Virus record (IMG/VR): IMGVR_UViG_3300008108_006704
Span: 1-28,701 of that record
Length of the DNA stretch: 28,701 nucleotides
Strand: one strand, 5' to 3'
From: a virus
Shown piece after piece: positions 2,128-16,692 of the stretch (within the stretch, counting starts at the first letter, position 1; every line of letters begins with the position of its first letter). The translations under genes were made by a program, and so were the position numbers. The notes beneath the pieces are model-generated. The model had not been told where the DNA came from. It was given only the letters and a program-made list of their open reading frames with translations, and did no database searches.

Positions 2128-2838
2128 TTAATAACCTAAATAATCGGAAAGTCTTCTCATTAAGTCAACAGACTTATCGGACTTAGTGATGTTTTCGGGT
2201 GATTTTTTTTCTTCTTCTAAGTTTTCTTCATATTTTGCTCTGTCATCTTTATTCAAGAACAAATATGCACCAGGAGTTGAAGGTGATGATACCAAGTCAA
2301 AACATATTAATTCAAAATCATCTTGTACTTCGTTTTGTTCACCTTTCTTGGCCAATGAGCCAATACCTCTTGATGAAACACCCATAGTAACGCCTTGCCT
2401 CATCAAATTAGCTGCCACGTCCCCTGGTGATGAAACAATACCTCTTTCATGAAATCCTGGTGTTGTTAATAATTTAATCTTACCCATTAGGACATTACCT
2501 TCCCACCACACATCTGTAATAAGGTGAGAAACTCTTTCCAAGTCAATCAAAGACGATTCAGGGTGATTTAATTCTGAGATAGACAATCCCTTACCAATCG
2601 CTTTTTTGTATTTTTCAACTTCTCTTTTTAGAATTCTTTCAGGGTATACTCTACCATTTCTATTTGGTACCCCATACTTTTGAAGTGTAGCATAAAACTC
2701 AAATGGTTTTGAATGCTCCAATTGACCATAAGATTCTCTTATAACTTCAGCATTTCTAAATTCACTTGGTGACACTAAACCTGCGTCCCATTCAACTAAT
2801 ATTCCTTTTCCCAAATCACTTGGACCTAATACTTTCAT
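2128..2838 (-). CDS. Prohead core protease, T4 gp21-like (peptidase family S80/U9)
   Basis: Serine protease that in T4-like phages matures the prohead by cleaving the scaffold, internal proteins and capsid N-terminus after short x-x-Glu motifs. It has 236 residues. The family signature is visible: NRNGRVYP near residue 60, the catalytic-His segment SELNHPESS (His92), the catalytic-Ser segment MGVSSRGIG (Ser155 or Ser156), and CFDLVSSPSTPGAYLF (residues 179-194). The last 40 residues are charged and could be a removable tail. The start ATG at 2838 follows TATTTATTAA by 11 bases, the presumed late-promoter motif. Position before the scaffold and capsid genes agrees with T4 gene 21. Confidence 0.88.
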   Translation of the reverse strand: MKVLGPSDLGKGILVEWDAGLVSPSEFRNAEVIRESYGQLEHSKPFEFYATLQKYGVPNRNGRVYPERILKREVEKYKKAIGKGLSISELNHPESSLIDLERVSHLITDVWWEGNVLMGKIKLLTTPGFHERGIVSSPGDVAANLMRQGVTMGVSSRGIGSLAKKGEQNEVQDDFELICFDLVSSPSTPGAYLFLNKDDRAKYEENLEEEKKSPENITKSDKSVDLMRRLSDYLGY

Positions 2839-2869: not shown

Positions 2870-3307
2870 TCAAATGTTCTTAGATTTTGATTTTGATAAT
2901 TGAAAATATTCTGACCTAAGTAACTCATCTTGATAGACTGACTTAGCAATTTTTTTAATTCTTTCTTTTAAAATTTGTGATTTAAATTCTAAAGAATCTT
3001 TTAGAAATAATGTAATTTCTAAACTCATAAAACTTTTTTTGTTTAATTGAATCCCACTTGAACGAAGGTCTAAATCAACTATCGAGTTCTTTTCGAAGAT
3101 GTCTTGGTCAATTACCTCCAATAAATTATGTTTAATTTGTCTATTCAAATTACCCGTAACTCTATCCCAATTTTCTACTTCTTTTTTTGGTTCTACCCAA
3201 GATTGTATGTTTATATATAATGATTTAAAATTTATTGAGTCTACTGTGCCATACACACATTTCGCATTATCAAATATTGATAATTTCGAAGTTTTTCCTT
3301 TTTTCAT
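2870..3307 (-). CDS. Hypothetical head-module protein
   Basis: A 145-residue protein (MKKGKTSKLSIFDNAKCVYG...). I do not recognise a family. It has no signal peptide or membrane segment and alternates beta-type stretches (SLEITLFLKDSLEF) with a basic C-terminal helix (KERIKKIAKSVYQDELL) ending in a Ser/Lys-rich tail. It lies just upstream of the prohead protease in the same orientation, 31 bases apart, and the protease has its own motif between them. No clear late motif precedes this gene. A virion assembly role is only suggested by position. Confidence 0.6.
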   Translation of the reverse strand: MKKGKTSKLSIFDNAKCVYGTVDSINFKSLYINIQSWVEPKKEVENWDRVTGNLNRQIKHNLLEVIDQDIFEKNSIVDLDLRSSGIQLNKKSFMSLEITLFLKDSLEFKSQILKERIKKIAKSVYQDELLRSEYFQLSKSKSKNI

Positions 3308-3391
3308 TTAGTTTTCATCTAAAAAAATTTATTGTTAAATGAATTATAAACAAAAAAAAATCATTTGTCAAAAACTTCACAGTTTCAATAA

Positions 3392-3401
3392 TATTTATTA
3401 A
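3392..3401 (+). promoter_or_regulatory. Late-promoter-like motif TATTTATTAA before rpsU
   Basis: TATTTATTAA on the plus strand ends 9 bases before the rpsU ATG. It is identical in sequence and spacing to the motif before minus-strand head genes, including the one at 4376-4385. This makes rpsU look co-regulated with virion genes although it is on the opposite strand. There is no purine-rich Shine-Dalgarno between it and the ATG. Confidence 0.55.
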
Positions 3402-3410
3402 AATAGTATT

Positions 3411-3605
3411 ATGATAGTAATCGAAATTCAAAAAGGAGAAAGTATCGAAAAAGCATTGAAACGATACAAGTATAAAGTCATTAAGACTAAGCAGATTGAT
3501 AAGTTACGTGAAAGACAAGAATTTGTCAAAAAGTCTGTAACAAAAAGAATGAAAAAACAAAAAGCCAAGTACAAACAATATCTCCAACACATGGAAACAA
3601 AATAA
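3411..3605 (+). CDS. rpsU: Ribosomal protein bS21, phage-encoded
   Basis: A 64-residue basic protein with the whole bS21 pattern: MIVIEIQKGESIEKALKRYKxK, then LRERQEFVKKSVTKRMKKQKAKYKQYL. It binds the 30S platform near the 3' end of 16S rRNA. In Flavobacterium, bS21 together with bS18 and bS6 is reported to sequester the anti-Shine-Dalgarno; as I recall, a Tyr at position 54 takes part. Tyr54 is present here (KAKY54KQY57). The length equals Bacteroidota bS21, so it looks intact. It is a lone plus-strand gene inserted between minus-strand head genes, with a late-type motif upstream and its own bidirectional terminator. bS21 is the ribosomal protein most often reported in phage genomes. Its likely role is to exchange with host bS21 late in infection; that is inference. 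Confidence 0.93.
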   Translation: MIVIEIQKGESIEKALKRYKYKVIKTKQIDKLRERQEFVKKSVTKRMKKQKAKYKQYLQHMETK

Positions 3606-3631
3606 AAAAGTCCGACAAAGTCGGACTTTTT
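3605..3631. terminator. Bidirectional terminator between rpsU and the 4365 gene
   Basis: Perfect 12-bp stem AAAAAGTCCGAC / GTCGGACTTTTT with an AAA loop. A-run and T-run flanks make it work in both directions. It starts at the rpsU stop codon and ends 2 bases before the convergent minus-strand gene's stop. Confidence 0.9.
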
Positions 3632-3633
3632 CT

Positions 3634-4365
3634 TTATAATCCTTGTTCTAATTGTTTGAGTTTATATAGTGAAATCAAATCTGAATCACTCTCCTTTATT
3701 CTTTGAATCGTATTGTTGATTTTATCTTTCAACTCAACATCTTCTGACTCTTCAATTCTACCTTCTAATTTAGATATTACACTTTCTCTTAGTGATTTGA
3801 TTTCTTCTGAAATTTGTTTTTTATTCAAGGACAACAAAGATTTTAATTCTTTTTTCTCATCTTCAGAGATATTAGAATACTCTTTATTGAACGTGTTTGT
3901 AACAATCTTCAACATAGACGAAAGTGGAATATTAACACTTTCTTGTACTTTTTCTTTTTTGGTTGTTGTCAACAAATTTTTGATTTGTTTTTTTGTCTCT
4001 AATATCCTTTCAAGATTAGTAACTTTATTTTCATAAACTACAAAGTCTATATTAGAATATTCGTTATCAACATCCCCATCTAAATTTGTTTTTACCCACT
4101 TGTATAATTCATCAATTTTTTTCTGATTAGAGGAAATTAAATCTGACAATTTAACAAATGATTCATTTACATACTCATTTGCAATTTCTTTATTAATACC
4201 TTTTTGTGAAGACAAATCATTGTAAATAAAGTACATCTCAGAGATGGCTTTGTTGGACAAAATATTTTTTTTGAATTCTTTCATTACGGTTTTAAAGGTT
4301 TCCTTACCGTATGATTGAACCATCATTTGGTCTAAATTTGATTTTAATTGTCCGAACTTGTTCAT
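3634..4365 (-). CDS. Hypothetical helical protein between portal and protease genes
   Basis: A 243-residue, Lys/Glu/Ser-rich protein, largely helical with coiled-coil-like stretches (ISEDEKKELKSLLSLNKKQISEEIKSL and the C-terminal SDLISLYKLKQLEQGL). No recognised domain, signal or membrane segment. It follows the portal gene in transcription order by 20 bases and has its own TATTTATTAA motif 10 bases before the ATG. In T4 the space between genes 20 and 21 is occupied by small core proteins (gp67, gp68), so a prohead core or internal role is plausible but not shown. Confidence 0.62.
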   Translation of the reverse strand: MNKFGQLKSNLDQMMVQSYGKETFKTVMKEFKKNILSNKAISEMYFIYNDLSSQKGINKEIANEYVNESFVKLSDLISSNQKKIDELYKWVKTNLDGDVDNEYSNIDFVVYENKVTNLERILETKKQIKNLLTTTKKEKVQESVNIPLSSMLKIVTNTFNKEYSNISEDEKKELKSLLSLNKKQISEEIKSLRESVISKLEGRIEESEDVELKDKINNTIQRIKESDSDLISLYKLKQLEQGL

Positions 4366-4375
4366 AATATTTTTA

Positions 4376-4385
4376 TTAATAAATA
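4376..4385 (-). promoter_or_regulatory. Late-promoter-like motif TATTTATTAA
   Basis: Minus-strand TATTTATTAA ending 10 bases before the ATG at 4365. It overlaps the space immediately upstream of the portal stop codon. Same sequence and spacing as at rpsU, the protease and the 12016 gene. Confidence 0.5.
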
Positions 4386-6236
4386 TTACTTATTCAGTAA
4401 CTCATTTAGTTTATCTTCAATTTCACCTAAAGATTTTTTTCCTTTAGACAAATCCAAAATGTCTTGACCCCTCAAAATATCATCTTCTATTAAAAGATTC
4501 ATATCTCTATCTTTAACAGATTCAGGTGTTACCTCAGCTTCACCTCCACCAGGTGCTGGTGTTTCAGGGGTTTCAGGTATTTCAGGTGCTCCCGTTTCTA
4601 AGGATGCTGGTTCACCAAAACCACCTAAATCTCCAACAGCAGGTTCCGTAGTTTCACCTTCAGGTTGTTCGCCAGGTGCAGGTTGGGTTCCTTTATTACC
4701 GTATAACTTATCCAAATTATCAAAAATACCTGTTTTAGTAATAACCTGAGGAGTTTGTTCAAGTTCAGCAGCAACTGCTTTTTCAATTCTTTGTTGTTGA
4801 ATATCCAATTTGATTTCTTCATCTGAAAAACCAAGAATGTGTTTTTTAGCCCATGATGATGAAACTGCTTGAATTCCATTACCTGGGTCACTAACAGCAT
4901 CTTTGTATAGAAGAATCTTTTCTTTCCAAGTTTCAATCTTCAGAAGGTCTGCCTGTGAAGATGGGTTTGTAAGTCCTAATACAAAGTTGTTTAATTCATC
5001 TTCAAATCCAAGAATATAAAGGTGAATAATCGCAATTTTATTCAACTCTTGAATCATCGATTTTTGAATTCTGTTAATAGTTCTTGCGAAACGAATATCC
5101 TGTAATGATAAATTTTTACCATCACCCACAACTTCTTCAAACCCTAAAAAGGCTTTAGGCACTCTTAGAGCTGTTAATAGTTTCTTTTGGATATATTCAA
5201 TATCGGCAATCTCTGAAAGATTCTGAGCACCGGGAAGAGTATCAATAGGATTAGGAGCGTTAGGGTCACGTACAGGAATAAAGAAATCTTGGTCAACAGC
5301 CATTTGGTTGAATCTCAAGTCAACATTACCCGTTTGTGGGTCCGCAATTTGGTCTCTCTTAAATTTATTGGCAACACGTTGTACATACGGTTCAACATCT
5401 TTATCATCCATGTTTCCGACAAACACCTTGAACACACGTCTTTCAGGTGCTCTTGATGTTCTATATACTAACATCGCATCTTCCGACAAAATAAGTTGTT
5501 TCCAAATACGACGGGCTTTTTCTAACATTGATGTACCATATGGTAGTTTTCTATCGTCACCCAATAATCTAAAGTGAGCAATTTCCCAAGTATTAAATTC
5601 TAAATCCTTTTCATTCCAAATGAATTTCAAAGCATCCGTTGTAGAATCTGTTTGATACTTTCCTGAAGAAATTTTCATACCTCTTTCAATTCTTTCAAGT
5701 TGAATATTCGGTAATTGTTGAGAACCCATAACACCCTTCTCAGGGTCTAATTTTAAGTAGACAAAATTGTCTCCATACTTGCAAGTATTTCTTGTCCACA
5801 TAGGTAGATTAGTATTGATATCCAATCTATTATTGAACAAGTCTGCAAGAATTGATTTAATTCGCTTACTCTCAGAGTATATTTGTAATATAAATCCATC
5901 TTCATTTGCTGTAGTTGATTCTTCGGCATATATGTCAAGGGCAGCTGAAATTTCAGGAGTATATTCCATACTCTCATAATCATAATACGCAGCCAGTCTT
6001 GTTGGTTGATAGTAAACGGCTTGAGTATATAAATTACTTTCAACTTTGGTCCATTGTTGACCCAAATAAAGTGATTGTTGAGCTTGAAGTTTTTCCCTTT
6101 CGTACTCTTGTTTATCGGTTGTTTTAAGTAATTCCTTTTTGTCAAATTTGTAAACAGGAGCTTGCTGGTCCAAAGTTGAATCGGGACCAAATACTTTACC
6201 AAGTCTCTGCCAAATCGTTAAGTTATTTTCTGCCAT
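4386..6236 (-). CDS. Portal protein, T4 gp20-like
   Basis: Forms the dodecameric DNA gate at the head vertex and the start point of head assembly. I choose the ATG at 6236 (616 residues; MAENNLTIWQRLGKVFGPD); an in-frame TTG 11 codons earlier is less likely. Gp20 hallmarks are present in order: LPYGTSMLEKARRIWKQL (about 231-248), EDAMLVYRTSRAPERRVF (about 252-269), TLPGAQNLSEI (about 333-343) and QKKLLTALRVPKAFL (about 350-364). The last 120 residues are a Pro/Glu/Gly-rich linker (PETPETPAPGGGEAEVTPE) and a helical tail, longer than in T4. It follows the terminase by 47 bases. A weaker motif, GTATTATTAATAA, precedes the start. Confidence 0.93.
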   Translation of the reverse strand: MAENNLTIWQRLGKVFGPDSTLDQQAPVYKFDKKELLKTTDKQEYEREKLQAQQSLYLGQQWTKVESNLYTQAVYYQPTRLAAYYDYESMEYTPEISAALDIYAEESTTANEDGFILQIYSESKRIKSILADLFNNRLDINTNLPMWTRNTCKYGDNFVYLKLDPEKGVMGSQQLPNIQLERIERGMKISSGKYQTDSTTDALKFIWNEKDLEFNTWEIAHFRLLGDDRKLPYGTSMLEKARRIWKQLILSEDAMLVYRTSRAPERRVFKVFVGNMDDKDVEPYVQRVANKFKRDQIADPQTGNVDLRFNQMAVDQDFFIPVRDPNAPNPIDTLPGAQNLSEIADIEYIQKKLLTALRVPKAFLGFEEVVGDGKNLSLQDIRFARTINRIQKSMIQELNKIAIIHLYILGFEDELNNFVLGLTNPSSQADLLKIETWKEKILLYKDAVSDPGNGIQAVSSSWAKKHILGFSDEEIKLDIQQQRIEKAVAAELEQTPQVITKTGIFDNLDKLYGNKGTQPAPGEQPEGETTEPAVGDLGGFGEPASLETGAPEIPETPETPAPGGGEAEVTPESVKDRDMNLLIEDDILRGQDILDLSKGKKSLGEIEDKLNELLNK

Positions 6237-6283
6237 TATACTCTTATTAATAATACGTTCATTCTTCAATAAAGAAACAAGAT

Positions 6284-8050
6284 TTATTTACCGAATAACC
6301 ATAAATACTTCTGATAATCACTTTGTGTAGGTTGACCAAACTTTTGATTATCCCTTCCATAATTACCCATAGATATTCCCGGATTGAAATCTTTCATCGA
6401 ACCTTTAACTGGTGTTTCATTTACTGTCCAACTTTCAACCATTGCTTTTGTAGTTTCAGTAACCTTTTCCAACTGTGAAAATGAGTTTTCACCAACATAA
6501 ATCGCCATTGCACAAGACATAATAAGGTCATCGTGTTGTCCTTTAAGGTGGTCTGGTCGACCATTTACATAAACAAAAGTATTCAACTCATTCAACAATC
6601 TACTTGACCTGATGTGAAAACCATGTCTTAACGCTTCTTCAAATGCTGCGATAATTTGAACCCTCTTTGAGTTAAAGTTAATACCAGGTATCTTTTCTAA
6701 TGCTTTTGGGTCGTATTTCCATTTATCAGCAATATTGACACCATCAATGTATAAATTTTTATATCCGAGTTCTTGTAGTTTTCTTGATGTAGATACTCCC
6801 ATACCTCCCGTAATATCAATTACAATAAATGCACTGTACATCACAGCCCATTTAATCGCAACTTCAGCAGCAACATCTGGTGGTATTTTTCCAAGATATT
6901 CTAATACTTGTTCTCTTTCATCAAAATCAATAATGTTGAAAGTTGTAAAATCTTCAGAATCTCCTCGTGAAACGTCAATACCCATAATGTATTTGTGACC
7001 CGGTACTGGCTCTTTCCATTGCCACAAAGCACCACCCATAAATTTATAATCAGGATTTTTGATGTCATTTTCTTTCATCCTTTCAATAACATCTGAAGGA
7101 ATTACTGAGTCACCTGAACCCAAGAAGTTACATTCCAATTCCTGTGCAATTTTTCTCCTATCAAATTTTAATTTTTTAGCCATAGCTTCAAACCATGATG
7201 AGTATGGTTTGTATCCATCGGCAAAAAGTTTTTTAATTTCATCAAAATTTCTTTGATATGGGTCAACCTCAGAATAATCGATTGTTATTTCATCATCTTT
7301 ATAATCTCCACGATTTAACAGATAATGTACAATATCTTTTACTTTGATAAGTTTTAAATCTTTTGAATAACGTGGGTCACGATACCAATACATTTCTGTA
7401 ATCTTGAAATCGTTCATACCACGGAGGGCTTGGTCATAGATACTGTAATAAATTGGGTCGAATCCGTTAGGGGTTGAAATTACAATAACTTTACCACCAG
7501 TAGACAAAGACGCCATACACGCAGACCAAAAGTCATCATCAGCATCAATAAAGGCGGCCTCGTCAAAAATAAGAATAGTTGGTGTATATCCACGAAGTGC
7601 GTCTTTTGAAGTTGCAACAGCTTTAACTTCACACCCATTGGATAATTTAAAGTGTTTTTGTGCGTTTTTTTCACCTGAAAAAGTAACTCCCAACCATGAA
7701 GGCCACTGTTCAACAAAGGCTCTAACCTTGTTTGCCATTTCAATGGACGTATCCTGTTTATTGGCAATAATAAGAATTTTTTCAGGTTTTGTTTTTGAAG
7801 CAAATACTAACTTTTTAGAGACCCAAGCGGATGTTACTGTCGATACACCTGCCTGTCTGTATTTGAGTGCAATATTTTCTTCGTGAGTATCGTAGTCTTC
7901 AATTAACCGTACTTGGTCAGGGAAAAGTTCTAATGGGACGTACTTTGATTGTGTGTTATCGTAAGTCTGCAAATATGTTCTAAGTGCGTAAGGTGTATTC
8001 TTTACGCATTTAGCATACTCTAAAATTGCTTGTTCTTTTGATAACGCCAT
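6284..8050 (-). CDS. terL: Terminase large subunit (DNA-packaging ATPase-nuclease)
   Basis: Motor that pumps phage DNA through the portal and cuts it. It has 588 residues, the usual length. The ATPase domain shows a variant Walker A, KYRQAGVST (63-71), Walker B ILIFDE (159-164) and coupling motif ISTPNG (191-196). The C-terminal RNase H-like nuclease shows three acidic motifs: GIDVSRGD (Asp359), IVIDITGG (Asp412) and GQHDDLIMS (Asp507/508). The start ATG at 8050 is 19 bases after the preceding gene's stop. It heads the T4-ordered block of terminase, portal, protease, scaffold and capsid. All catalytic motifs are intact, so it should be active. Confidence 0.95.
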   Translation of the reverse strand: MALSKEQAILEYAKCVKNTPYALRTYLQTYDNTQSKYVPLELFPDQVRLIEDYDTHEENIALKYRQAGVSTVTSAWVSKKLVFASKTKPEKILIIANKQDTSIEMANKVRAFVEQWPSWLGVTFSGEKNAQKHFKLSNGCEVKAVATSKDALRGYTPTILIFDEAAFIDADDDFWSACMASLSTGGKVIVISTPNGFDPIYYSIYDQALRGMNDFKITEMYWYRDPRYSKDLKLIKVKDIVHYLLNRGDYKDDEITIDYSEVDPYQRNFDEIKKLFADGYKPYSSWFEAMAKKLKFDRRKIAQELECNFLGSGDSVIPSDVIERMKENDIKNPDYKFMGGALWQWKEPVPGHKYIMGIDVSRGDSEDFTTFNIIDFDEREQVLEYLGKIPPDVAAEVAIKWAVMYSAFIVIDITGGMGVSTSRKLQELGYKNLYIDGVNIADKWKYDPKALEKIPGINFNSKRVQIIAAFEEALRHGFHIRSSRLLNELNTFVYVNGRPDHLKGQHDDLIMSCAMAIYVGENSFSQLEKVTETTKAMVESWTVNETPVKGSMKDFNPGISMGNYGRDNQKFGQPTQSDYQKYLWLFGK

Positions 8051-12070: not shown

Positions 12071-12823
12071 TTATTCAGTAACTTCTTGTTCTAATGACAG
12101 ACGTTTGTCTGTTAATTCATTAGCAAAATCAAAAAGTTTTTGAATATATCCGTTTCTTCTGAGGAACTTAAATACCAAATTTTCATATGAATATTCACCC
12201 TCTCTCTCTAATCCCGCACTTCTATAATCCTTCAATCTTTCTTTGATTTTTTCAATCATTTTTAGTGCTGAATCCAAATCATCATTTTCTGAATTATCAA
12301 TAGTCATATCAATGATGTCCATCCACTGCTCAACTTTCTCTTTTATTTTTCTACTATCGATGGACACTTCCTCCAATGAAGGTTCGTTAATCCACTCATC
12401 AAATAATACAGAATAAACTCCCGAAGATATATGTTGTTCTTCACTATCTTGAACATATAATTCAACTTCATATCCCTTTACTGTAATATCGTGGGTTGAA
12501 TTAAAAAGAGTTTTTTTCATTTTGAATAGTTCTTTATATATTTCTTTGAATTCTCCTGCTTCGTCAAAATTATACATAATGTGTAAATCAACATCTGAAA
12601 AATCAGACCAGTTGAAGTTAGCTAAAGAACCCGTCATAGTTATATCGGATACAAAAATATCAACGTTTAAAAATTCAATAAATTCATTCGCAATTGCCAA
12701 TAAAGAATCACGAACATCATCTCTCATTTTTGTTTGTTCTTCATTATCAACATTTGTCCATATCTTAGGATTCAAAGTATCCTTGACGTAAAAACTTGAT
12801 AATATTTTTTTGAAACTATCCAT
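12071..12823 (-). CDS. Nucleotidyltransferase-fold protein (Pol beta superfamily)
   Basis: A 250-residue protein starting at ATG 12823 (MDSFKKILSSFYVKD); an earlier in-frame TTG is less likely. The core signature is clear: TGSLANFNWSDFSDVDLHI, with G65-S66 and Asp77/Asp79 as the metal-binding D-x-D pair, and a probable third acidic residue in VKGYEVELYVQD (Glu121). The C-terminal half is helical. The family includes tRNA- and antibiotic-modifying enzymes, MNT-type toxin/antitoxin partners and cyclic-nucleotide synthases; the sequence alone does not decide which. It sits among small minus-strand genes of unknown function. Its start lies only 2 bases after a TATTTATAA motif. Confidence 0.72.
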   Translation of the reverse strand: MDSFKKILSSFYVKDTLNPKIWTNVDNEEQTKMRDDVRDSLLAIANEFIEFLNVDIFVSDITMTGSLANFNWSDFSDVDLHIMYNFDEAGEFKEIYKELFKMKKTLFNSTHDITVKGYEVELYVQDSEEQHISSGVYSVLFDEWINEPSLEEVSIDSRKIKEKVEQWMDIIDMTIDNSENDDLDSALKMIEKIKERLKDYRSAGLEREGEYSYENLVFKFLRRNGYIQKLFDFANELTDKRLSLEQEVTE

Positions 12824-14048: not shown

Positions 14049-14477
14049 TTACTCGTATTTTCTAAGTTCGTCTCGAACCTTGATTGCCTCTTCGAAGTCT
14101 TGTTTTTCGATACATTCCTTTAACTTATTTTGAAGGTCTGAAATTAAATCCTTATTTTCCTCAAGTTCTTTAATCATGTCACGAAGTTTGATAGCTAGTA
14201 GGAAGTCTTCGTTTTCCACTGCAATTTTCAACTCGTCTTTGAGTCTTTCAACTTTATCGTGTTTTGGTTTCTTGTTAGGTGTACCACCTACTGAATAAAT
14301 TATAGTAGATTTGATTGTACCATCAGGTGATGTGTAAGACTCACTGGTCCATTCCCCATCCGTTTTCTTAAATTTTTTAAACGATAATGGGTCTCCACCC
14401 ATGAAACCTGCACCAAGCATAGCTTCGAGTTCTTTTAACATTTCTTCAAGACTTTTACGATTGCCAAATAAATCCAT
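14049..14477 (-). CDS. Double UVR-motif protein, possible ClpC adaptor
   Basis: 142 residues. Two UVR (UvrB/UvrC) motifs are visible in the C-terminal half: KVERLKDELKIAVENEDFLL followed by AIKLRDMIKEL (about 75-105) and DLQNKLKECIEKQDFEEAIK followed by VRDELRKYE (about 114-142). The N-terminal half starts MDLFGNRKSLEEMLKELEAM and includes a Gly-rich turn and a small beta segment, without the zinc Cys pairs of McsA. UVR motifs occur in UvrB/UvrC and in the ClpC partner McsA, and also in the middle domain of ClpC. The gene is divergent from a phage clpC that itself carries a UVR motif, so an adaptor role is a reasonable inference. On the minus strand TATAAATA (14502-14509) lies 24 bases before its ATG. 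Confidence 0.8.
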   Translation of the reverse strand: MDLFGNRKSLEEMLKELEAMLGAGFMGGDPLSFKKFKKTDGEWTSESYTSPDGTIKSTIIYSVGGTPNKKPKHDKVERLKDELKIAVENEDFLLAIKLRDMIKELEENKDLISDLQNKLKECIEKQDFEEAIKVRDELRKYE

Positions 14478-14649: not shown

Positions 14650-16692
14650 ATGATTGAAGAAATGGACCCTAACGAAAAGTCTGGTCGACGTAATAAAGAC
14701 CAAAACACACAGTCATCCACTCCTGTATTGGATAACTTCTCACGAGACCTAATTAAGTTGGCTGAGAAGGGAAAATTGGACCCTGTGATTGGTCGAGACC
14801 AAGAGATTGCACGTATTGCTCAGATTCTTTCCCGTAGAAAGAAAAATAACCCAATCATCATCGGCGAACCAGGTTGTGGTAAAACCGCAATCGTTGAGGG
14901 TTTAGCGATGAAGATTTTCCAAGGTGAGTGTCCACAGAATCTATGTGATAAAAGAATCGTTTCTTTGGACATGACTTCTATTGTTGCCGGTACAAAATAC
15001 CGTGGACAGTTTGAAGAACGTTTGAAGGTGATTCTTGAAGAACTTCACAACAACCCTGAAATCATCGTATTCATTGATGAGATTCATACAATCATCGGAG
15101 CAGGTAATTCTTCAGGTTCTTTGGACGCATCGAACATCTTTAAACCCGCCTTGGCACGTGGTGAACTCCAATGTATCGGAGCAACCACTTTGGATGAGTA
15201 CCGTGAAAACATCGAAAAGGATGGGGCGTTGGAGCGTCGTTTTCAAAAGGTTATGGTGGACGCAGCATCACCTGAAGAAACTCTTCAAATCTTAAACAAC
15301 CTCAAGGACCGTTATGAGGCACACCACAAAGTAGAGTATTCAAAAGAATCACTTGAAGCATGTGTTTATTTGGCGGACCGTTACATCACCGACCGTGAGT
15401 TCCCTGATAAAGGTATCGATATCATGGACGAAGTTGGTGCACGTTCTCAAATCAATGTCAAGCTCCCTGAAGAGATTGAGCAACTAAAACAAAAAGCGGC
15501 CGACATTAAAGAACAAAAACTTCTGGTGGTTAAAAAACAGAACTACGAAGAAGCCGCTCAACTCCGTGACAAGGAAAAGAAAATCCTCAAACAACTTGAG
15601 GACGCAAAGAAGGATTTTGAATCAAAACAAAATACTCAACGCAAACCTATCACTGAGGAAATGGTCTACGAGGTTGTTTCACTTATGACCAAAATCCCTG
15701 TAAACAAACTATCACAAAAAGAAATGGAAGGTTTGTTGGAACTCGAGAACAACTTGAAACTGAATGTTATCGGTCAGGACTCGGCAGTTACAAAGATTGC
15801 CAAAGCAGTTCGTCGTAACCGTGTAGGTATCAAGGACCCTAACAGACCAATCGGTTCGTTTATTTTCTTGGGTTCAACGGGTATTGGTAAAACTCATTTG
15901 GCTAAACAGTTAGCCAAAGAAATCTTTGGAGCTGAAGATTCACTCATCCGTGTGGATATGTCAGAATACCAAGAGAAGCATTCAATGTCACGATTGATTG
16001 GTTCACCTCCGGGTTATGTCGGATTTAACGAAGGTGGTCAACTGACTGAAGCTGTGAAAAACAAACCATACTCCGTAGTATTGTTTGATGAGGTCGAGAA
16101 GGCAAACAAAGATATCTTCTCTCTTCTACTTCAAGTTTTAGATGACGGTCACCTAACAGATGGTATGGGTCGTAAGATTAACTTCAAAAACTGTATCATC
16201 ATCATGACCTCTAACATCGGAGTAAAAAAACTTCAGGACTTCGGTACTGGTGTTGGTTTTGAAACCTCATCACGTATGTCGTCAAATGAAGAACTAAAAG
16301 TACAACTTCTTCAAAAAGAACTTAAGAGTTATTTTACTCCCGAGTTTTTGAATCGTCTTGATGAGGTGGTTGTGTTTAACTCACTCGGAGAAAACGAAGT
16401 AAAACAAATCGTGAATATCGAATTGTCAAAACTTACAAAACGTTTGACTCGTTTAGGTTATCACGTCAACTTCGATGAAAGTCTACACTTGTTCTTGGCT
16501 AAAGTTGGATTCGACGAAAAGTACGGTGCCCGTCCTATCAAACGAGCAATCCAAGAAAAAGTAGAAGACTTTATTTCTGAAGAAGTACTACGAAGTAACA
16601 TTAAGATTGGTGAACATTACCAACTTTCGGTTACTGATGAAGTAGTCACCATCACAAAACAAGAAGAAGAAGTTTTAGAAGGGGGAATTTAA
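14650..16692 (+). CDS. clpC: ClpC-type AAA+ unfoldase lacking the N-domain
   Basis: ATP-driven protein unfoldase of 680 residues. The first AAA+ ring has pore loop KYRG (117-119), Walker A GEPGCGKT (72-79), Walker B FIDE (141-144) and Arg finger ERRF (195-198). A short middle region carries a UVR motif ([13 protein letters not shown], 298-310), as in ClpC. The second ring has Walker A GSTGIGKT (408-415), Walker B LFDE (478-481), pore loop GYVG (455-458) and sensor 2 GARPIKR (626-632). The loop FGTGVGF (531-537) matches the VGF loop by which ClpC docks on ClpP. Host ClpC carries about 140 more N-terminal residues (the adaptor-binding repeat domain); here only about 24 precede the [11 protein letters not shown] start of D1. 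Sequence is clearly of Bacteroidota ClpC type. Likely works with host ClpP. Confidence 0.93.

Follow-up and report, generated by a model that had tools for sequence, protein, structure and literature searches.

A phage-encoded bS21 gene in a T4-type head block, with a putative late-type upstream motif and no Shine-Dalgarno sequence

Background

The ribosomal protein most often carried by phages is bS21, and a gene for it, rpsU, lies within the head gene block of the viral sequence analysed here (IMG/VR record IMGVR_UViG_3300008108_006704, positions 1 to 28,701; this whole stretch of 28,701 nt is referred to as the window). When would such a copy be made during infection, and how does it stand towards the circuit by which some hosts control their own bS21? 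In the portions of McNutt et al. 2023 drawn on here (PMC9976891), Flavobacterium johnsoniae rpsU is reported to be best translated by bS21-free ribosomes by way of an extended Shine-Dalgarno (SD) sequence, an rpsU SD that is found in ~80% of Flavobacteriales and no Bacteroidales, and phage bS21 is discussed merely as a possible intruder. The corresponding portions of Chen et al. 2022 (PMC9723584) describe 47 Bacteroidetes phages in which bS21 is encoded within the same block but against its strand, all with an aromatic residue 54 and with divergent residues around 21-28, together with metatranscriptomes in which bS21 is highly expressed along with structural genes and a proposal that phage bS21 is substituted into ribosomes late in infection. 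The leader of phage rpsU receives no comment in the portions used of either paper. Here we put forward, at a probability of about 0.6, that a late phage bS21 made outside the host loop, with the anti-SD kept hidden and host rpsU repressed, is the best explanation of this locus.

Results

The rpsU gene and its protein

The first-pass annotation had called a full-length bS21 with Tyr54, placed against the strand of the head genes, and each of these points is borne out. The rpsU gene (3411..3605, +) encodes 64 aa that match Pfam Ribosomal_S21 (PF01165) at 43.6 bits (cut-off 27) over profile positions 2-55 of 55, its residue 54 is Tyr, and it is the sole + strand gene within a - strand T4-type head block. 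An aromatic residue 54 is of the Bacteroidia type, and Tyr54 is constant in 48/48 distinct phage relatives and 54/54 host bS21 proteins. A comparison with host bS21, which that annotation had proposed, shows that beyond this common residue the two sets differ completely at loop positions 21, 23, 24, 27, 28 and 30, which read R-F-D-G-T-R in the 54 hosts and Y/H-V-I-K-Q-E/D in the 48 phages, with V/K/Q at positions 23/27/28 near-invariant in phages against F/G/T in hosts; the loop of the window protein (Tyr21, Val23, Lys27, Gln28) is of the phage type. In a bS21 tree built from few alignment columns the 48 phage copies form one group with support of 91/94. We also noted a complement of the anti-SD, AAAAAGGAGAA, at 3430-3440 (+) within codons 7-10 of rpsU; this probably reflects simply the codons for K-G-E.

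These features of the protein bear on two other explanations. Phage bS21 could be equal to that of the host and only keep up the stock when host genes are silent, with no preference or regulation involved. The invariant Tyr54 fits such a supply role, as do the poor initiation on SD-less mRNAs described for F. johnsoniae ribosomes without the C-terminal region of bS21 (PMC9976891, in the portions used) and the late co-expression with structural genes in related phages (PMC9723584, likewise), but the uniform replacement of the loop in all phages is unexpected for a plain duplicate of a host protein, and we consider supply alone an unlikely account, if one to be taken seriously. The second explanation is the selective hijack set out in the cited portions of Chen et al. 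2022, in which the altered N-terminal half and loop shift mRNA selection to phage transcripts. The fixed loop differences do fall on the face placed near the mRNA by Chen et al.; however, we found no shared late-gene translation signal beyond A-rich leaders, and host mRNAs are SD-less as well, so that selection would have no evident target, which leaves this proposal doubtful in our estimation.

Setting of rpsU in the head block

The reading we favour, a late bS21 made outside the host loop, turns on how rpsU is expressed. Its surroundings comprise a prohead protease of the T4 gp21 type (2128..2838, -; PF03420, 86.5 bits), a portal protein of the T4 gp20 type (4386..6269, -; PF07230, 264 bits) and the terminase large subunit (6284..8050, -; PF03237, 53 bits). 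Directly beside it are two conserved proteins with no assigned function, a divergent one of 145 aa (2870..3307, -), which flanks rpsU in relatives and gave no Pfam or PHROG match, and a convergent one of 243 aa (3634..4365, -). A two-way intrinsic terminator (3604..3632, both strands), consisting of a stem of 12-13 pairs and T-runs each way, parts rpsU from the convergent gene and so makes rpsU a unit of its own. At the level of sequence elements rpsU is shown to be self-contained, with its own putative late-type box and its own predicted terminator, running against the head-block strand. An empty site is found at L258:857-2144, where both rpsU-flanking genes stand side by side with no rpsU, their products being 39% (the 243-aa gene) and 50% identical to those of the window.

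In L028, L029, L031, L064 and L069 rpsU is followed directly on its 3' side by another small gene of the + strand (79-100 aa), which in L028, L031, L064 and L069 has a TATTTAT of its own. Elsewhere in the window a ClpB/ClpC-like AAA+ unfoldase (14650-16692, +) is preceded by a host-type TATATTTG box, with a UVR-motif protein (14049-14477, -) divergent from it; McNutt et al. speculate, in the portions used here, about a possible phage-encoded protease that would remove host bS21 in such phages (PMC9976891).

Upstream of rpsU, the divergent 145-aa gene has a sigma70-like promoter, TTGACA-17-TATAAT (3343..3371, -; 12/12 match). Bacteroidota hosts have promoters of the TTG/TAnnTTTG type, and such a perfect TTGACA-17-TATAAT is unusual for a Bacteroidota phage; its TTTTGAC is kept in distant relatives. 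At first we took TTGTCAAAA, a conserved element that ends up 22-24 nt ahead of TATTTAT, for a -33 element of rpsU. This was rejected, as it is better taken as the TTTTGAC of the divergent promoter just described, as TTTGAC persists in L258, which is without rpsU, and as no TTG was seen at a fixed -33 position before other TATTTAT genes across the relatives' loci.

A strand-specific motif in the window and its relatives

The putative phage promoter box of rpsU is an exact copy of the motif TATTTATTAA (core TATTTAT) at 3392..3401 (+). There are four exact copies in the window against 0.40 expected, a number reached in 0/100 shuffles, and all four directly precede a start codon on its sense strand, the gap being 9 nt to rpsU, 10 nt to the 243-aa gene (start 4365, -; motif at 4376-4385, -), 10 nt to a 64-aa gene (start 12016, -) and 11 nt to the prohead protease (start 2838, -; motif at 2850-2859, -). 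That rpsU shares motif and spacing with the head genes, as had been stated at first pass, is therefore correct in that the motif is exact and the gaps agree to within 2 nt, but of the three other carriers the prohead protease alone is an identified head gene. No exact TATTTAT lies within 45 nt of the portal, terminase or visible MCP start in the window, although relatives often have one there.

An incidental TATTTATTAA before rpsU might be expected in an AT-rich genome, and copies with one mismatch number 20 against 11.4 expected in the window. The excess and placement of the exact copies speak against chance, as do the 37 sense and 0 antisense occurrences of TATTTATTA in 18 relative loci and the conservation of the motif before rpsU in relatives, and we find a chance origin hardly credible. 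These 18 non-redundant loci span 276 kb, and of their 316 upstream regions 132 have TATTTAT on the sense strand and 24 on the antisense strand, counts in which homologous genes of different loci are entered separately and which are thus not fully independent events. The TATTTAT core precedes rpsU in most relatives, the base before it is almost never T, A makes up 67-83% at +11 to +14 from its first T, and its distances to the ATG fall into classes of ~11, ~21 and ~40 nt with a gap at -14 to -18.

If the A peak (+11 to +13) marks the transcription start, the ~11-nt class would be leaderless and the ~21-nt class would have leaders of ~7-13 nt. For rpsU of the window we infer a start at ~3403, guided by the A peak that lies 11-13 nt beyond the motif's first T, which would leave a leader of ~8 nt, AUAGUAUU (3403..3410, +), without an SD, and rpsU of the relatives L030 and L033 would be leaderless. 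TATTTAT starting 10-13 nt before an ATG is seen at 12823 (-) in the window and in L074, L077, L064, L031, L029, L028 and others, and a start 11-13 nt downstream predicts leaderless mRNAs for this class. Genes of the class include late-type terminase, portal, the 243-aa head-block gene and a nucleotidyltransferase-like gene. Phage bS21 had been suggested at first pass to favour leaderless or SD-less mRNAs, but these predicted leaders do not tie bS21 to any such preference.

Translation in Bacteroidota prefers unstructured A/U-rich leaders. This, together with the AT-rich genome, could be taken to mean that TATTTAT is a feature of the RNA, an A/U-rich initiation region and no promoter. We judge this quite improbable: three separate distance classes with a gap between them do not readily fit a ribosome-binding element, the strand bias is strong, the 7-mer core is fixed, and host-type boxes cluster elsewhere in a 162-kb relative. 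In that genome host-type TTG-TAnnTTTG promoters stand at 10/84 genes of the first 60 kb and at 0/86 genes of the remaining part, which holds head, tail and replication genes. TATTTAT was also considered as a form of the host -7 box TAnnTTTG, of which the window does have examples (14650, 21709, 25069), and this was rejected: TATTTAT has a fixed core and flanks that set it apart, and TAnnTTTG lacks sense bias in the same loci.

Taking TATTTAT as a putative promoter element, as we prefer, the late expression proposed for rpsU can be soundly inferred, as the motif is common with late-type genes and published metatranscriptomes of related phages agree. TATTTAT is also found near DNA polymerase and DnaB genes, so that middle genes may be covered too. 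The rpsU box itself differs by clade, being TATTTAT or one of the off-consensus forms TATTTGT, TATTTTT and TATTTCT. The rpsU genes of L072-L074 have a host-type TTG-N18-TATATTTG box (e.g. L074 9950-10000) and not the late-type motif, suggesting that expression may be earlier in that branch, and rpsU of L077 has neither box. Late wiring of rpsU is thus common but not universal.

A candidate sigma factor in relatives

A sigma-like protein of ~250 aa, which matches the T4 late sigma family weakly, is encoded by 9/12 large relatives, among them the contigs that hold the nearest relatives of the window (L308, L310); the window itself is without it. In the examined loci (L310:1501-2247, +; L200:1342-2100, +) its gene is found beside a glycosyltransferase-like gene. 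Profile comparison with nine gp55 proteins gave a moderate result (P 5e-5, probability 67%), a PDB profile search gave E 0.16, and phrog_12791, another late sigma family, gave no match in a search whose controls were silent too. The predicted model (mean pLDDT 72) aligns almost solely with sigma factors, by way of region 2, with weak Foldseek E-values, and its alignment with gp55 (7d7c) has Z 5.7 over 97 residues at 3.5 A. A sigma region 2 fold is thereby supported for the modelled protein, which would be a candidate for the factor that reads TATTTAT. A fuller scheme can be entertained tentatively, as the less probable outcome, in which these phages would combine a sigma factor of their own with a late promoter built like that of T4, RTATTTATW with a start 11-13 nt downstream, to give leaderless or ~8-nt-leader late mRNAs, rpsU among them, and the bS21 so made would stand outside the SD-dependent feedback of the host and shut host rpsU off by taking away the bS21-free ribosomes that translate it.

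Shine-Dalgarno sequences in phage and host leaders

The absence of a purine-rich box before rpsU, noted at first pass, is upheld: the last 25 nt before the ATG contain no AGG, GGA or GAG, and these are likewise absent from the last 25 nt of all 31 distinct relatives' leaders. Pairing energies were calculated with ViennaRNA against a 16S tail, GGAUCACCUCCUUUCU, assumed to be of the F. johnsoniae type, and do not coincide exactly with those of McNutt. For hosts we used the 80 rpsU genes nearest to F. johnsoniae bS21, which gave 46 distinct Flavobacteriales-type leaders with a median of -22.0 kcal/mol (range -24.8 to -17.6). The 31 distinct phage leaders had a median of -1.5 kcal/mol (range -3.2 to +0.2), so that phage and host energies show zero overlap. 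None of the 31, one of which is identical to that of the window, falls below -13 kcal/mol as an extended SD would, and rpsU is also SD-less in a second, more divergent phage set.

SD-lessness is nevertheless the default of these phages' genes (306 leaders, median -2.6, ~5% below -8 kcal/mol), and the absent SD before rpsU is for this reason no evidence of selection for escape. The idea that the phage copy escapes autoregulation survives in part: it follows soundly from the very strong SD of the host-type gene and the lack of one in the phage gene, but it is weakened by the phage-wide default and by the uneven occurrence of the SD among hosts. Judged by its leader the phage rpsU is outside the SD-based host loop, and SD control of rpsU may be missing from the group of bacteria to which the phage's host belongs.

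Two host chromosomal rpsU loci filed among viral records, L163 (5001) and L273 (1501), have no SD, in keeping with its lack in Bacteroidales in McNutt et al., and adjoin tyrosine recombinase and HPF-like genes; L163 had been considered as a phage rpsU with a host-like protein and was rejected, as these neighbours mark a host chromosome. In L274 (LR756501, a 735-kb phage) a strong SD, AAAGGAGGATAAATG (1485-1500; -12.1), precedes the bS21 gene, a counter-example that lies outside the window's phage group.

Discussion

In the mechanism we propose, a phage-directed RNA polymerase, with a candidate gp55-like sigma in relatives, would transcribe rpsU late together with the head genes. The rpsU mRNA would have a leader of ~8 nt, too short for an SD and lacking its sequence, and would for that reason be translated by ordinary ribosomes with a hidden anti-SD, outside the host loop, in which bS21-free ribosomes alone would translate host rpsU well; phage rpsU would be indifferent to bS21 status. 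Phage bS21 would then join 30S subunits and keep the anti-SD sequestered through Tyr54, and the sequestered anti-SD would support initiation on SD-less phage mRNAs. By consuming the bS21-free ribosomes that host rpsU needs, the phage protein would lower host rpsU translation and repress host bS21, the feedback of the host being turned on its own protein.

The strong SD in the host gene and its absence from the phage gene join the accounts of host rpsU autoregulation and of phage bS21, with the joint prediction that phage bS21 would lower expression of a host rpsU'-gfp reporter and leave a phage-leader reporter unchanged. The TATTTAT motif and the sigma candidate offer a first way into the late transcription of Bacteroidota T4-type phages, whose late promoters are described in none of the papers searched; the same search of open-licence papers, a weak negative, gave no earlier account of the motif or of the SD status of phage rpsU. 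Gene order, aromatic residue 54 and high expression with structural genes are already published (PMC9723584, in the portions used), and the full separation of host and phage leaders, the strand-specific, phage-wide TATTTAT motif and the predicted ~8-nt or absent leaders are new.

Comparison with known systems

Membership of the window in the bS21-encoding, T4-related Bacteroidota phages is well supported. As in the phages of Chen et al., which have TerL in clades a-e and genomes of 293-331 kb, bS21 runs against the strand of the TerL/portal/protease/MCP region and has a conserved hypothetical gene on either side, with Tyr at 54 and the same divergent residues at ~21-28, late co-expression being reported for theirs. 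The differences are that the window is a 28.7-kb fragment, and that promoter motif, SD status, terminator and sigma factor do not figure in the cited portions of their report (PMC9723584). With host rpsU of Flavobacteriales the phage gene shares the protein family, including the Tyr54 that is needed there for anti-SD occlusion according to the portions used (PMC9976891), and differs in having no extended SD, a predicted leader of ~8 nt, another loop and a site in the head block.

T4 late promoters (PMC2988020) resemble the putative phage promoters in having a single AT-rich 8-bp box approximately one turn upstream of the start, predicted in the case of these phages, with no -35 element and A/T-rich sequence downstream, and the window's relatives encode a candidate sigma of the region-2 fold. 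The T4 late box TATAAATA and the phage sense sequence TATTTATW are nearly reverse complements; the phages do not follow the T4 orientation, ATAAATA being the rarer one in the surveyed upstream regions (24 against 132 TATTTAT). T4 gp55 has 185 aa, whereas the candidate sigma has ~250 aa with further C-terminal helices. Finally, bS21 of the Pelagibacter phage HTVC008M, likewise phage-encoded but from a phage whose host lies outside Bacteroidota, is reported to enter E. coli ribosomes (Mizuno et al. 2019, as cited in the portions used of PMC9723584).
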